Below, piece after piece: positions 1 through 6,089 of a stretch of DNA of 6,089 nucleotides (its first letter is position 1; the number at the start of each line of letters is the position of its first letter). The notes below the pieces were generated by a model. That model was not told the DNA's origin, searched no databases, and saw nothing but the letters and a program-made list of their open reading frames with translations. Made by a program: the position numbers and the translations under genes. Source of the stretch: Streptosporangiaceae bacterium (GTDB lineage Bacteria > Actinomycetota > Actinomycetes > Streptosporangiales > Streptosporangiaceae); NCBI GenBank assembly GCA_025934635.1, contig JAICWX010000439.1:1-6089 (forward strand), read 5' to 3'.

Positions 1-437
<437 letters not shown>

Positions 438-477: not shown

Positions 478-2346
478 TCATGACCCCGCGGCACCGAGGG
501 CCGAACGATCCGGGCTGGTCGCCGGGGCGGCCGGCAGCCTGACCTGGATGGTCAGCCCGCCGCCGGGCGTGTCCACCGCGGAAATGCGGCCGCCCATCGC
601 CTCGGCGAAACCGCGCGCCACGGTGAGCCCGAGCCCCACGCCCGGGTGCCGGTCGCCGGCCCGCTCGAACGGCTCGAAGATACGGTCCTTCTGCTCGTCC
701 GGCACGCCCGGACCGTGGTCCGCCACCTCGAGGCACACCGTCCCCCCGGACAGCGAGGCGTGCAGCCCGGGCGGCCGCCCGGCGGGGGAGTAGCGCAGCG
801 CGTTGGAGAACAGGTTGGCCAGCACCCGCTCGAGCAGGCCAGGATCGGCCAGCACCAGCGGGAAGCCGTCCGGCACGGCCAGCTCGAGCCGCAGCGAGTC
901 GTCCAGGCCGACTGCCGCCACCGGCGCCACCTCGTCGATCGCGGTCGGCCGCAGGAACGGCTGCAGCGAGCCGGCGTGCAGGCGGCTCATGTCGAGCAGG
1001 TTGCCGATCAGCGCGTCCAGCCGGTCCGCGTTCTGCTCGATCGTGGCCAGAAAGTCGGCCTGATCTTCCAACGACCACGCCACATCGGTCTGCCGCAGGC
1101 TGCTGACCGATGCCTTGACCGAGGCGAGCGGGGTGCGCAGGTCGTGGCTGACCGCGGCCAGCAGCGCGGTCCGCATCCGGTTGCCCTCGGCCAGCGCCTC
1201 GGCCTGGGCGGCCTGGGTGCGCAGCCGCTCCCGGTCGAGCGAGGTCGCGGCCTGGGCCGCGTACCCCGCGATCACGGCCGGCGTCGCCGACGGAGCCTGG
1301 CCGCACAGAAGCAGGGTCAGGTCGTCGCGGATATCGATGCGGTTGGCCGCGTCCAGCGCACCGTCCACACCGCTCGAGGCGATCCGGACCCAGGTACCGC
1401 CGGCTCGTTCGGTCAGTTCGGCCTGGCCGCCGTGGGCGCGGGTCAGGTGCTCGAGGACGGCGGCCGGCGAGTCGGCCCCGCCGAGCACGGTCTGCGCCAG
1501 CTCCAGCAGCGAGGCCGCCTCCTCGCGGGCCGCCGCGGCCTGGACCGCGCGCCGCGCGGCCAGGTGGACCATGCTGCTGACGGCGACCGCGACGGTGACG
1601 AACAGCAGCAGGGCCAGCAGGTTCGGTGGCTCGGCGATGGTGAACGTGTGCAGCGGCTCGGTGAAGAACCAGTTGAGCAGCAGGCTGGCTGCCACCGCGG
1701 CCAGCACGGCGGGCCAGAACCCGCCCACCACCGTGATCGTCACCACCGCGACCAGGTAGATGAGCAGGTCGTCGGCCAGGTCCAGGTGCGGCCGGGCAGC
1801 GGTGAGAACCAGTGTCAGCAGCGGCAGCAGCGCCGCGGCCAGCAGCGCCCCGCCCACCCGGCGCCGCAGGCCGATCGCGGCATCCCCAGTCGCCGCGGCC
1901 GCGGAGCCCGCGCCCGCCAACGAGGCCGCAGCGGCCGCGCGCCGGTCACGTCGCATGCCCGGATACCTGCCCACGCCTACCAGTGTGCGCCGCCGCCCGT
2001 GCCAGCGGAACACCACGCCAGCCACCGCGCCAGCCACCACGGCCGCACCGATCACCAAAGCGGCGTGCCCGGAGGCCGGCCCGGTCGGCCGCAGCTGCGC
2101 GTACGGCGGTCGCGCGAAACCGACAGCGGTGAGCCAGCCGATCCCGGCCAGGAACAACGCCGCCACCGGTTCGGCGGCAAAGGACATGAAACAAGCGATC
2201 ACCGCGCAGAGAACCAGCACTCCGGTGGCCGGCAGGCGGCCGTTCAGGGCGGCGGCGGCCGTGCCCACGGCCAGGAACATGGCGAAGGCGGCCGGCAGCG
2301 CGTACGGCGCCGGCGCCGCCGAGGACCCAAAGAACCTGTATCTCAT
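478..2346 (-). CDS. kdpD: Short KdpD-type sensor histidine kinase (DUF4118, HisKA, HATPase)
   Basis: Membrane histidine kinase of 622 residues, expected to autophosphorylate and signal to the adjacent KdpE. Domains in order: four predicted N-terminal membrane segments (about 13-33, 39-56, 60-77, 92-114); a basic, Ala-rich linker (115-164); a DUF4118-type four-helix module (about 165-262) with the signature LLNWFFTEPLHTFTIAEP; a GAF-like or coiled region (about 265-390); HisKA with phospho-acceptor H401 in SHDLRTPLASVK; HATPase with N-box N511/N515 (NLFSNALRYS), G1 DHGPGV (543-548) and G2 GVGLGL (569-574). All catalytic motifs are intact. The roughly 350-residue N-terminal KdpD and Usp domains of E. 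coli-type KdpD are absent. The ATG at 2346 follows GGGGGTGCG, an acceptable ribosome-binding region. ATG 1956 would give a 492-residue form with one membrane module, but the upstream frame is open and looks like coding sequence. The gene is divergent from a KimA-like permease, which supports a potassium-related role. Confidence 0.9.
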   Translation of the reverse strand: MRYRFFGSSAAPAPYALPAAFAMFLAVGTAAAALNGRLPATGVLVLCAVIACFMSFAAEPVAALFLAGIGWLTAVGFARPPYAQLRPTGPASGHAALVIGAAVVAGAVAGVVFRWHGRRRTLVGVGRYPGMRRDRRAAAAASLAGAGSAAAATGDAAIGLRRRVGGALLAAALLPLLTLVLTAARPHLDLADDLLIYLVAVVTITVVGGFWPAVLAAVAASLLLNWFFTEPLHTFTIAEPPNLLALLLFVTVAVAVSSMVHLAARRAVQAAAAREEAASLLELAQTVLGGADSPAAVLEHLTRAHGGQAELTERAGGTWVRIASSGVDGALDAANRIDIRDDLTLLLCGQAPSATPAVIAGYAAQAATSLDRERLRTQAAQAEALAEGNRMRTALLAAVSHDLRTPLASVKASVSSLRQTDVAWSLEDQADFLATIEQNADRLDALIGNLLDMSRLHAGSLQPFLRPTAIDEVAPVAAVGLDDSLRLELAVPDGFPLVLADPGLLERVLANLFSNALRYSPAGRPPGLHASLSGGTVCLEVADHGPGVPDEQKDRIFEPFERAGDRHPGVGLGLTVARGFAEAMGGRISAVDTPGGGLTIQVRLPAAPATSPDRSALGAAGS

Positions 2347-2516: not shown

Positions 2517-4955
2517 GTGGCGATGCGCAAGGCGGCTGGCCTGCTAGTCGGCGGTCAGCCGAACGAGCTGCCGGAGACCTTCTGGTACTCCGTCAAGCGC
2601 CGCATGCTCGGCCCGCCGATGGTCAACGAGCAGCTCAAGGAGGAGCGGCTGTCCAAGCCGCTGGCCCTGGGCGTGCTGTCGTGCGACGGGATCTCGTCGG
2701 CGAACTACGGCTCGGAGTTGATCCTGCACGAGCTGCTGCCGCTGTTCGGCCTGGCGTCGTTCACGCTGCTGATGCCGCTGACCGGAGTGATCCTGCTCGG
2801 CATCTTCCTGGTCGTGCTGTCCTACCGCGAGGTGGTGACGGTCTACACCCGGGCGGGCGGCTCCTACGTGGTGGCCAGGGAGAACTTCGGCCCCCGGGTG
2901 GCCCAGGTCGCGGCCGTCGCGCTGATGGTGGACTACGTGGTCACGGTCGCGGTGCAGAACTCCGCGGGCAGCGCCGCGATCTTGTCCACGTTCCCCGCGC
3001 TGGCCCGGCCGCTCGGCGAAACCGCGACCCTGCTGCTGATCACGGTCGCGGCCACGCTCCTCATGGCGTACGTGAACCTGCGCGGCGTCCGGGAGAACGG
3101 CAGGACGTTCGCGCTGCCTACCTACCTGTTCACCGGTTCTGTGGGCCTGATGATCCTGACCGGGCTGGCCCGGGAGGTCTTCGGCGGCGGCCTGTCCCAC
3201 GTCACCTGGCACCCCGGAACGGTGGCGATCGGGCACAACGCCGGCACCCTGATCGCCTTCGCGGCCATGCTCACGCTCGCCCGCGCGTTCGCCAACGGCG
3301 GTTCCTCGCTGACCGGCATCGAGGCGGTGTCCAACGCGGTCAGCGCGCTGCGCCCGCCCGAGGGCCGAAATGCCCGGCGGATCCTGGAGATCCAGGGCGC
3401 GATCGTGATGTTCCTGATCGCCGGCATTTCCTGGCTGGCCCACCTCACCCACGCGGTCCCGTACGCCAGCGGCGTCCCCACGGTGGTCTCCCAGGAGGCC
3501 GGCCTGGTCTTCGGGCCCACCGTCTTCGGGCAGGTCATGTTCTACCTGGTCCAGGCGGGCGCCATCACGATCCTGTTCACCGGCGGCAACACCAGCTTCA
3601 GCGGCTTCCCGTTCCTGACCAGCTTCGTGGCGGAGGATCTGTTCCTGCCGCGCTGGCTAAGCAAGCGCGGCCACCGGCTGGTGTTCTCCAACGGCATCAT
3701 CGTGCTCACCGTGCTCGCGCTCGCCCTGCTGTTCGCGGTCGGGGCGAACACCAACAACCTGGTCCCCTTCTACGCGATCGGCGTGTTCACCGGGTTCTCC
3801 ATGGCTGGCTTCGGCATGGTCCGCTACCACCTGCGACAGCGCGAGCAGGGCTGGCGCCGCCGGCTCATCATCAACCTCACCGGCGGCATCTACACCGCGC
3901 TGGTCGTGGTGATCTTCGCGGTGGTGAAGTTCACCGAGGGCGCCTGGCTGGTGGTCGTGGTCTTCCCGATCGGGGTGTTCGCGTTCATCCGGCTGAACCG
4001 CGAGTACCGGACCGAGTCCCGGGTGCTGCAAAACATCGGGGAGCGCCGCGCCACCGGCGTGGCACAGAACCCGCCGAACTACACCCGCCGGGTGGTCATC
4101 GTCTTCATCGACGACTTCGACCTGGCCACCCTGGCCGCGCTCCGGTACGCGAAGAGCCTGCGGGCGACCACGGTGCGGGCCGTGCACTTCGTCATCGACA
4201 GCGAGCAGGCCGAGCGGCTGCGGGCCGCGTGGCTGCCGGACCGCGGCGTATCGCTGGAGTTCGTCGACTGCCCGGACCGCAGGCTGACCCGGTGCGCCGC
4301 TGACCTGGTGGCCCACGAGGCGGAGGCGCCCGGCACCCAGGTGACCGCGATCCTGCCCCGGCGCAGCTTCGCGCCGCTGCTCGGCCGGCTGCTGCACGAC
4401 CGGACCGCGGACAAGATCGCCGGCGTGGTCAGCCGGGTGCCGAACGCGGCCGCCACCATCATCCCGTTCGACGTGCAGAACCGGGTCCGCGTACTGCAGG
4501 AGCGCCAGGCCGGCCTGATCCCCGTGCCGACGCCGGTCACGGGTCCCTCGCCCGATGACGAACTGCGGCACCTCAAGGCCGCGGCCGCCGCCGCGACGCC
4601 GGCCGACGACCGGCCCGGCCCCGTCGACCCGCTGCCCGGCGCGGGCGGCTACGACCGGCCCGTCCCGCCCAGGGACGCGACCCCGATCGGCTCGATCCAC
4701 GAGCCGGGCAAGTTCACCGTCGAGGGCCGGGTCCGGGTCGTCGAGATCAGGTCGGTGCAGAGTAATTCGGTCCTGGCCTGCGAGCTGTCCGATTCCACCG
4801 GGGACCTGACCGCGCTGTTCTACGGCCGGTCCCGCATCGCGGGCGTGATGTGCGGCTCCCGGGTCAGGTTCCGCGGCCAGGTCGGCATCAAGGAAGGAGC
4901 ACCCGTCATGGTCAACCCGGCCTACGAGCTCACCTCCGCCCAGGACAACGATTAA
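2517..4955 (+). CDS. KimA-like APC-superfamily potassium permease with USP-like and OB-fold tail
   Basis: Predicted inner-membrane potassium importer of 812 residues; KimA of B. subtilis, a proton-coupled APC/KUP-superfamily transporter, is about 607. Twelve membrane segments span about residues 46-491. The segment-1 motif SCDGISSANYG carries D57 and Y64, with the same spacing as the KimA potassium-site D36/Y43; D139/Y140 in MVDYVVTVAV match KimA D117/Y118; E269 lies in the segment-6 LTGIEA motif; EGAWLVVVVFP marks the last segment. A cytoplasmic USP-like domain follows (about 523-660, with LLGRLLHDRTADKI), then a Pro/Ala/Asp-rich linker (661-721) and an OB-fold (722-806, with LTALFYGRS and VMVNPAYEL). 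The GTG at 2517 is nine bases after GGAG; ATG 2523 is the only close alternative, and a stop at 2487 closes the frame. Automatic annotation would probably say amino acid permease, but the conserved site residues and the Kdp neighbours favour potassium. The OB-fold is not part of B. subtilis KimA and its role is unknown. Confidence 0.88.
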   Translation: MAMRKAAGLLVGGQPNELPETFWYSVKRRMLGPPMVNEQLKEERLSKPLALGVLSCDGISSANYGSELILHELLPLFGLASFTLLMPLTGVILLGIFLVVLSYREVVTVYTRAGGSYVVARENFGPRVAQVAAVALMVDYVVTVAVQNSAGSAAILSTFPALARPLGETATLLLITVAATLLMAYVNLRGVRENGRTFALPTYLFTGSVGLMILTGLAREVFGGGLSHVTWHPGTVAIGHNAGTLIAFAAMLTLARAFANGGSSLTGIEAVSNAVSALRPPEGRNARRILEIQGAIVMFLIAGISWLAHLTHAVPYASGVPTVVSQEAGLVFGPTVFGQVMFYLVQAGAITILFTGGNTSFSGFPFLTSFVAEDLFLPRWLSKRGHRLVFSNGIIVLTVLALALLFAVGANTNNLVPFYAIGVFTGFSMAGFGMVRYHLRQREQGWRRRLIINLTGGIYTALVVVIFAVVKFTEGAWLVVVVFPIGVFAFIRLNREYRTESRVLQNIGERRATGVAQNPPNYTRRVVIVFIDDFDLATLAALRYAKSLRATTVRAVHFVIDSEQAERLRAAWLPDRGVSLEFVDCPDRRLTRCAADLVAHEAEAPGTQVTAILPRRSFAPLLGRLLHDRTADKIAGVVSRVPNAAATIIPFDVQNRVRVLQERQAGLIPVPTPVTGPSPDDELRHLKAAAAAATPADDRPGPVDPLPGAGGYDRPVPPRDATPIGSIHEPGKFTVEGRVRVVEIRSVQSNSVLACELSDSTGDLTALFYGRSRIAGVMCGSRVRFRGQVGIKEGAPVMVNPAYELTSAQDND

Positions 4956-4962
4956 AACCTAG

Positions 4963-4995
4963 GCACCGAACGGGGTAGCCATCCCCGTTCGGTGC
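4963..4995. terminator. Bidirectional intrinsic terminator between convergent permease genes
   Basis: GCACCGAACGGGG (4963-4975) and CCCCGTTCGGTGC (4983-4995) form a perfect 13-bp inverted repeat around the 7-nt loop TAGCCAT. It sits 7 bp after the plus-strand TAA and 25 bp after the minus-strand TGA. The minus-strand transcript has a short T run about five bases past the stem (TTTT at 4957-4954), whereas the plus-strand side has only a weak one (CTTTGATC). This suits a shared terminator for two convergent genes in a GC-rich genome, where U-tracts are often poor. Confidence 0.85.
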
Positions 4996-5020
4996 AAGGT
5001 CTTTGATCTCGTGGTGCTGG

Positions 5021-6089
5021 TCAGACCGCGGGGAAGATCAATTCGTAAGCCGGGTTGATCATCACCGGGTGGCCGTCCTTGATGCCCACCGAGCCCTTGA
5101 AGCGGACCCGCGCGCTGCACACGATGCCCGGGATGTGCGAGCGGCCGTAGAACAGCGCCGTGAGGGTGCCGCTCCCGTCGGAGATCTCGCAGGCCAGCAC
5201 CGAGTTGCTCTTGACCGGCTTGATCTCCACCACCCGGATCCGGCCCTCCACGACGACCTTGCCCGGCTGGGTGATCGAGCCGATCCGGGTGATCCCGGGG
5301 ACGGTGGATGGCGTCTCGCCGTCCGGGCCGGTGTCCTCGCACGGCTCCGGCGTCTTGCGCCGGAGCAGGCCGCGGGCCTTCGCCGCTTGCTCGGAGAGCG
5401 GCGCGCCCTTGCCGTTGGGCCCCGCCCCGTTCGGCCCGGCCCCGTTGGGCCCGGTGCCGGTCGATGCTGCGCCGTTCGCGTGGTCGGCCGCGACCGCGGC
5501 CTCCTCGGTCCTGAACTTCTGGTCGGCGGTGTCGGCGGCCCCGGCCGCCATCGTGGCGGCGGCCTGGCGCTCCTGCAGGACCCGGACGCGGCTCTCCACG
5601 TCGTAGGGCACGATGGTGGCGGCCGAGCGCGGGATGCGGCTGACCACGGCGGCGATCTTGTCCGCGGTGCGGTCGTGCAGCAGCCGGCCGAGCAGCGCGG
5701 AGTAGCTGCGCCGGGGCAGCACCACGGTGACGTGGGTGCCGGGGTCGGCGACCTCCCGCTCGACCAGTTCGGCGGCCGCCCGGAGCAGCCGCCGGTCGGC
5801 CACGTCGACGAAGTCCAGCGGGACGCCGCGGTCGGCCCGGGTCCACTTCTCCCGCAGCTTGTCGGCCCGGACGCTGTCGAGGACGAAGTGCCCCGCGCGG
5901 ATGCTGCTGGGCCGCATGCTCCGCGCGTACCGCAGCGCGGCCAGCGTGGCCAGGTCGAAGCCGTCCACGAAGACGAGGATGATACGGCGGTTGTAATGCG
6001 GCGGGGGCGGCGGCTGGTTCTCGGTCAGCGTCTCGAGCACGCCGGACTCGGCCGCGTACTCGCGGTTCATCCGGATCAGGGCGGGCACC
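5021..6089 (-). CDS. C-terminal part of a second KimA-like permease with USP-like and OB-fold tail (5' end beyond window)
   Basis: The visible 355 complete codons start inside the gene. The first residues, VPALIRMNREYAAES, align with VFAFIRLNREYRTES just after the last membrane segment of the permease at 2517, so the transmembrane part lies past the right edge and the GTG at 6088 is an internal valine, not a start. A USP-like domain spans visible residues 31-172 and shares LLGRLLHDRTADKI and RVRVLQERQA with its paralogue. A longer Ala-rich linker (173-265) contains a short Gly-Pro-Asn-Gly repeat, and an OB-fold follows (266-352). The OB-folds of the two genes match at about 59 of 82 positions by eye, while the linkers have diverged completely. 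The gene ends in TGA at 5023-5021, convergent to the first copy and separated by a shared hairpin. It looks intact within the window. Function is inferred from the paralogue. Confidence 0.88.
   Translation of the reverse strand, partial: VPALIRMNREYAAESGVLETLTENQPPPPPHYNRRIILVFVDGFDLATLAALRYARSMRPSSIRAGHFVLDSVRADKLREKWTRADRGVPLDFVDVADRRLLRAAAELVEREVADPGTHVTVVLPRRSYSALLGRLLHDRTADKIAAVVSRIPRSAATIVPYDVESRVRVLQERQAAATMAAGAADTADQKFRTEEAAVAADHANGAASTGTGPNGAGPNGAGPNGKGAPLSEQAAKARGLLRRKTPEPCEDTGPDGETPSTVPGITRIGSITQPGKVVVEGRIRVVEIKPVKSNSVLACEISDGSGTLTALFYGRSHIPGIVCSARVRFKGSVGIKDGHPVMINPAYELIFPAV
5411..5455 (-). repeat. Three 15-bp tandem units coding for an AGPNG linker repeat
   Basis: Three near-identical 15-bp units (5411-5425, 5426-5440, 5441-5455) differ at only a few bases. 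They encode consecutive Gly-Pro-Asn-Gly-Ala units in the linker between the USP-like and OB-fold domains of the second permease. The paralogue at 2517 has no such repeat. The repeat is in frame and probably arose by slippage in a flexible, low-constraint linker. Confidence 0.8.

Follow-up and report, generated by a model that had tools for sequence, protein, structure and literature searches.

The nearest described relative of the permease reported here is KimA of Bacillus subtilis, a KUP family transporter with a chain of 607 residues (structures 6s3k, 8b70, and 8b71). The available portion of PMC10284832 names its residues Y118, N237, and R337 and describes its inhibition by c-di-AMP bound at its cytosolic domain. 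A second related system is the small stand-alone OB-fold protein of actinobacteria, whose neighborhood is already known in part, as a Streptomyces OB-fold cluster is syntenic with trkA, kdpD, and kdpE according to the accessible part of a 2026 paper (PMC13118837). In its sources this protein is named as OB-fold nucleic acid binding, RecG-like helicase, or hypothetical, and the passages of the literature covered report no function for it. A literature search of partial coverage, with most subscription papers outside it, found no report of a fusion between KimA and an OB domain, and the portions consulted of PMC10284832, PMC10117811, PMC13118837, PMC4255298, and PMC4686210 do not name one.

Such a fusion is encoded in the stretch of DNA that we analyzed, 6,089 nucleotides from a Streptosporangiaceae bacterium, referred to here as the window. 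Four potassium-related genes are present. On the plus strand, at 2517..4955, lies a KimA-like potassium permease of 812 residues with a C-terminal OB domain, recognized from its open reading frame and its matches to AA_permease_2 and to KimA (6s3k). Converging on it from the minus strand is the 3' part of a second KimA-OB gene (5021..6088), which encodes the C-terminal 355 residues and has its 5' part beyond the window. The two copies are identical at 183 of 354 alignment columns (52%, OB tail included), and comparison with the first copy places the second OB domain at 5039..5293 on the minus strand. The window thus holds two OB-type tails, one for each convergent permease. RNA folding of the region between the genes (4945-5030) gave z scores of -6.9 for the plus strand and -5.2 for the minus strand and revealed a hairpin (4963..4995) whose 13-bp stem is perfectly paired; it is probably a two-way terminator shared by the convergent genes. 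A search for riboswitches in the window and six loci returned no Rfam match above the gathering score.

The remaining two genes, both on the minus strand, resemble the KdpDE two-component system in that a histidine kinase with DUF4118, HisKA, and HATPase domains by Pfam (478..2346) and a response regulator adjoin a potassium transporter. The regulator, truncated at the window edge (3..434), matches PF00072, and its best NCBIfam model is KdpE, with a score under the cut-off of that model. The pair differs from KdpDE in that the kinase matches neither the KdpD sensor family (PF02702) nor the USP family (PF00582) at an E value of 1 or better, that it adjoins KimA-OB, and that no kdpFABC is found in the window. 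Full-length KdpD, with both PF02702 and USP present, is found in the kinases of loci L062, L070, and L075. We considered the short kinase as a marker of c-di-AMP loss and rejected it because two genomes with a diadenylate cyclase (G037 and G055) carry the short form too.

Four parts can be distinguished along the 812-residue permease, all on the plus strand: an APC/KUP transmembrane part (residues 24-490; 2586..3986), defined by the AA_permease_2 and 6s3k matches; a cytosolic USP/PPAT-like domain (residues 522-656; 4080..4484), defined by a KimA alignment that runs up to residue 592 and by dN/dS; a Pro/Ala/Gly-rich linker (residues 660-719; 4494..4673), marked by relaxed selection; and the OB-fold domain (residues 722-806; 4680..4934). 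The protein matched AA_permease_2 (PF13520) at an E value of 8e-27 and KimA 6s3k at 9.8e-87 over residues 23-592, and its Y140, N273, and R379 align with Y118, N237, and R337 of KimA. From APC-fold homology and these three residues, we predict that it is a KimA/KUP-type K+/H+ symporter. Among the 49 rows of the fused KimA clade described below, the Y118 equivalent is Y in all 49 and the R337 equivalent is R in 46, while the N237 equivalent is N in 31 and D in 18. The rows from seven small genomes (L079, L080, L084, L085, and L087-L089) all have D at this last position, and two of them are without the R. The window protein resembles B. subtilis KimA in its transmembrane core and in the first portion of the USP/PPAT-like domain but extends beyond it with an OB-fold attached through about 60 residues of linker. 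The KimA alignment stops short of the C-terminal residues of the c-di-AMP pocket, and the cytosolic domain alone had no PDB match.

The initial annotation had placed an OB-fold unit at residues 722-806, behind the USP-like domain, and structure prediction confirmed it. The AF2 model of this segment (pLDDT 90.8) is a beta-barrel with the topology that defines the OB-fold superfamily, and its structure matches include RPA, the RecG wedge, and the anticodon domains of aspartyl-tRNA synthetase. By sequence, the closest models are RecG and PF01336, although the OB domain of the first copy matched no Pfam family at an E value of 0.01 or better and that of the second copy reached 15.4 bits, short of the PF01336 gathering cut-off of 27 bits; the stand-alone OB protein of L053 passes it with 34 bits. 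Among solved structures the RecG wedge is closest by sequence (9wm0, E 0.0029), and it has an OB-fold and a P-x-Y motif near its end as the window domain does, but the GRxxIxG loop is absent from RecG, and the window domain has NP where RecG has HP. The protein is not a RecG helicase, as no helicase family is among its Pfam matches and the RecG models hit the wedge-like stretch only.

The likeness to a small stand-alone protein that the initial annotation had pointed out also proved correct at the level of family. An alignment and residue counts over 76 domains show the signature G..D...GRxxIxG...G...NPxYEL in the window domain and in the stand-alone actinobacterial protein, and one profile retrieves both forms. 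The stand-alone protein thus shares the pattern of G, D, GR, G, G, NP, and Y and the potassium context, but it is encoded by a separate gene, has a higher median charge, and lies beside a different, long-diverged KimA clade. Four proteins of 124-133 residues that are 85-89% identical to the tail in the window (P0001-P0004) are annotated as separate proteins; they may be either true splits or pieces of fused genes produced by gene calling.

OB-folds frequently bind proteins or small ligands. It is conceivable, if unlikely, that the domain binds RNA or DNA and so ties the transporter to nucleic acid or senses nucleic acid. The fold is common to the RPA, RecG wedge, and synthetase domains named above, RecG and PF01336 are the nearest sequence models, and the computed charge of the stand-alone domains is mildly basic (median +3.6, range -0.2 to +6.7; n = 25, including L011, which is really fused), with some fused domains reaching +6.0. 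As a group, however, the fused domains are near neutral (median +0.8, range -8.3 to +6.0; n = 50), and ten of them, encoded in genomes of 1.2-2.2 Mb, have acidic values (-2.2 to -5.2). This lower charge mildly disfavors nucleic-acid binding as the function shared by the two forms. It fits the earlier suggestion of a regulatory rather than a DNA-binding role, which we can only infer because the charge of the fused domains spans so wide a range.

Residues 715-812 as query retrieved 1708 proteins whose lengths range from 0.55 to 1.75 times that of the full permease; some of the best 120 are fragments, and the weaker matches may be other OB proteins. A fused open reading frame is present in 17 of 20 related loci, including L001, which is cut at a contig end, and the other three comprise an assembly gap (L011) and two fragments (L019 and L020). 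At L011 the OB and permease frames differ, and we rejected a genuine gene fission in favor of an assembly gap because unreadable bases, seen as X in the translation, fall within the repetitive linker. The convergent KimA-OB pair recurs in 9 of the 20 loci, together with the kinase and regulator in eight of these; the ninth, L015, ends earlier. A third OB sequence of Trebonia kvetii (L022/L065, 8399-9313) was considered as a stand-alone gene, but it is a decayed KimA-OB remnant in which most of the permease is missing and the OB tail is still readable.

In a class sample of 197 genomes, an OB profile built from 27 rows and applied at a cut-off of 1e-10 matched 173 genomes (63 of 66, 54 of 66, and 56 of 65 in the three parts of the sample). 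It returned 184 OB rows, of which 29, in 28 genomes, immediately follow a KimA in the same orientation and are counted as fused. The other 155, in 155 genomes, do not lie behind any listed KimA; setting aside the Trebonia remnant, which is among them, leaves the stand-alone form in 154 of the 197 genomes, G028 and G053 included. Every OB row in a long frame sits behind KimA at this cut-off. KimA was found in 178 genomes, and the two proteins occur together in 169, with KimA only in 9, OB only in 4, and neither in 15, counts that ignore kinship and genome completeness. Weak OB matches (E 1.4e-7 to 1.7e-6) right behind KimA in G067, G170, and G180 stand outside the count of 28, and the KimAs ahead of them are 56-57% identical to the window KimA. 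G180 also carries two fused-clade KimA genes in tandem, neither of which has an OB tail (L092, 7562-9520 and 9545-11647). In a phylum sample the profile matched 83 of 198 genomes, a figure for which the cut-off of 1e-10 fails to exclude RecG-like frames, and many rows between 5e-16 and 9e-11 have frames of 690-960 codons. Two strong matches in that sample, G350:C77:4632-4907 (7.2e-29, 919-codon frame) and G271:C1:2008794-2009063 (7.9e-26, 839-codon frame), may be further fusions.

The stand-alone gene had been said to lie near TrkA, DUF3159, and APC-permease genes, and our survey of its surroundings bears this out. By Pfam, the locus of L053, from a genome of 7.5 Mb, consists of dUTPase, DUF3710, OB (PF01336), DUF3159, two TrkA genes on the opposite strand, a KimA-like permease, and a TRAM methyltransferase. 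Among the 155 non-fused OB rows, 96 come from genomes with a KimA row among the best KimA matches listed and could be checked. KimA lies 1.4-5.9 kb from the OB gene in 77 of these 96, and in 76 of the 77 it is downstream on the same strand; the other 19 have no listed KimA within 15 kb, being on another contig in 18 cases and far off on the same contig in G083. Twenty regions were also picked by hand for spread, one of which is the Trebonia remnant. The 19 stand-alone loci among them hold the TrkA pair in every case, KimA in place in 18 (as two open reading frames in L066), and DUF3159 in 16. KdpDE lies between DUF3710 and the stand-alone OB gene in three (L062, L070, and L072), and in L071 the OB gene and TrkA pair are present with KimA absent from the locus. 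A fused KimA-OB gene adjoins the usual locus in L066 (5380-13663, genome G021), where the OB gene, the TrkA pair, and the split KimA persist.

Because the TrkA pair accompanies all 19 stand-alone loci, against 18 for KimA, a role through TrkA has to be weighed, in which the OB protein would be a partner of the TrkA/RCK pair, as an assembly or gating-ring factor, and would reach KimA by way of TrkA. A review could not identify TrkH or KtrB in S. venezuelae (PMC10117811, in the portion available), so the TrkA proteins may serve KimA. The fused loci argue otherwise. The seven fused loci of the small genomes (1.2-2.2 Mb) gave no TrkA match within the regions retrieved, and the fusion partner is KimA, with no joined TrkA-OB frame among the 40 regions examined. 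We therefore regard a TrkA partner as quite unlikely. Since the usual locus also holds dUTPase, DUF3710, DUF3159, and methyltransferase genes, it is the fusion and not the neighborhood that points to KimA.

Phylogenetic analysis was performed separately for the permeases and for the OB domains. The KimA tree contains 67 rows (65 different), with L021-L052 and frames shorter than 560 residues left out, and is without the second copy in the window, L001, the Trebonia remnant, and the split KimA of L066. In it, 46 fused rows form one clade together with three OB-less rows (the L011 artefact and the two of G180), and this clade lies far from the 18 KimAs of the usual locus. The OB tree was built from 75 domains, with identical ones merged and the short L019 left out; it has few columns and rough bootstrap values. 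A supported branch in this tree separates fused from stand-alone domains, with the assembly gap at L011 as the exception. The simplest reading is that a single fusion arose long ago, then spread, and was lost in a few cases.

One genome, G012, carries the fusion within the usual locus (L086), in the order dUTPase, DUF3710, two TrkA, KimA-OB, and TRAM methyltransferase, with neither a separate OB gene nor DUF3159 at the locus. Its one KimA at 1e-20 is placed in the fused clade, and the fusion thus seems to take the place of the separate KimA and OB pair. With all 122 candidates scored, the genome has one further OB-like match, which is weak (E 8.2e-6, 938-codon frame) and probably RecG; the separate OB gene may also have been lost through incomplete assembly. 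The Rosetta-stone link that the initial annotation proposed between the stand-alone OB protein and the permease is thus supported as an inference by the fusion itself, the tree grouping, the proximity to KimA, and the G012 locus.

Given the inhibition of KimA by c-di-AMP at its cytosolic domain (PMC10284832, in the part available), the OB domain could be imagined as a second c-di-AMP sensor on KimA. A diadenylate cyclase (PF02457) was found in 151 of the 197 genomes of the class sample and in 11 of 14 control genomes. The stand-alone OB form and the cyclase tend to agree, with both in 141 genomes, OB only in 13, cyclase only in 10, and neither in 33 when kinship is ignored. By OB form, the cyclase occurs in 9 of 9 genomes with both forms, 132 of 145 with the stand-alone form only, 8 of 24 with no OB, and 2 of 19 with the fused form only, the completeness of these last genomes not being given. 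It was also found in 7 of the 20 genomes of window-like loci and in none of the nine with the convergent KimA-OB pair. The fused-only genomes measure 1.2-2.2 Mb, except G001, G012, and G024, and the fused-only cases represent few independent events because the seven small-genome loci share one supported clade of the KimA tree. Still, the fused OB persists where PF02457 was not found, in 17 of 19 fused-only and 9 of 9 convergent-pair genomes, which makes c-di-AMP unlikely as the ligand of the OB domain. Moreover, the c-di-AMP site of KimA already sits on another cytosolic domain according to the same portion of PMC10284832, and we consider a second sensor very unlikely.

Selection on the domains was estimated from seven pairs of related fused genes. 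Values of dN/dS were 0.03-0.17 for the OB domain, 0.03-0.19 for the membrane part, 0.03-0.18 for the USP domain, and 0.23-0.55 for the linker; the pairs were picked as relatives and are not all independent (two are from the same two genomes, and L080 is in two), and saturation affects several dS values, which lie above 1. We preferred dN/dS to per-domain identities because the latter, such as the mean pairwise identity of 0.64 for linker residues 662-719, are biased by the ranking of proteins on the OB region. The OB tail is under purifying selection, and the linker is relaxed. That the tail is a functionless passenger of an old fusion is highly improbable in light of this difference from the adjoining linker and of ten residues conserved in at least 75 of the 76 OB domains, even though some fused-clade KimAs are without it (G180) and the OB matches behind KimA in G067, G170, and G180 are weak.

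We are thus inclined, by a modest degree, to the explanation that the OB domain regulates or assembles KimA. The tail would serve a KimA/KUP-type K+/H+ symporter as an accessory domain in the cytosol. It would represent, in cis, a small actinobacterial OB protein that has a gene of its own in most of the relatives sampled. That gene lies next to those for a KimA permease and two TrkA proteins, and its product would probably act there in trans. The most likely mode of action would be that the domain docks to a partner protein or to the cytosolic face of the KimA dimer and adjusts transport or assembly, responding to a protein or small ligand that is not c-di-AMP. We make no docking claim because the full-length AlphaFold model of the 812-residue protein had a pLDDT of 43.4 and was discarded. 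Several observations run against a role tied to KimA: L071 has the OB gene with TrkA and without KimA, the two fused-clade KimAs of G180 are without OB, 19 of 96 rows have no nearby KimA, and 9 genomes hold KimA only and 4 OB only.

The fusion supplies a concrete partner, KimA, for an OB protein present in 154 of the 197 genomes of the class sample, and suggests that this protein, so far little studied, probably assists or regulates the uptake of potassium. Where KimA is kept and no diadenylate cyclase is found, potassium uptake would have to be controlled otherwise. A tentative possibility is that the actinobacterial OB protein constitutes a third cytosolic regulator of KimA, independent of c-di-AMP, beside the USP-like domain and TrkA/RCK. 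The fused form may then have taken over the control of potassium uptake from c-di-AMP in lineages that lost the diadenylate cyclase, namely Trebonia and its kin and the actinobacteria whose genomes measure 1.2-2.2 Mb.
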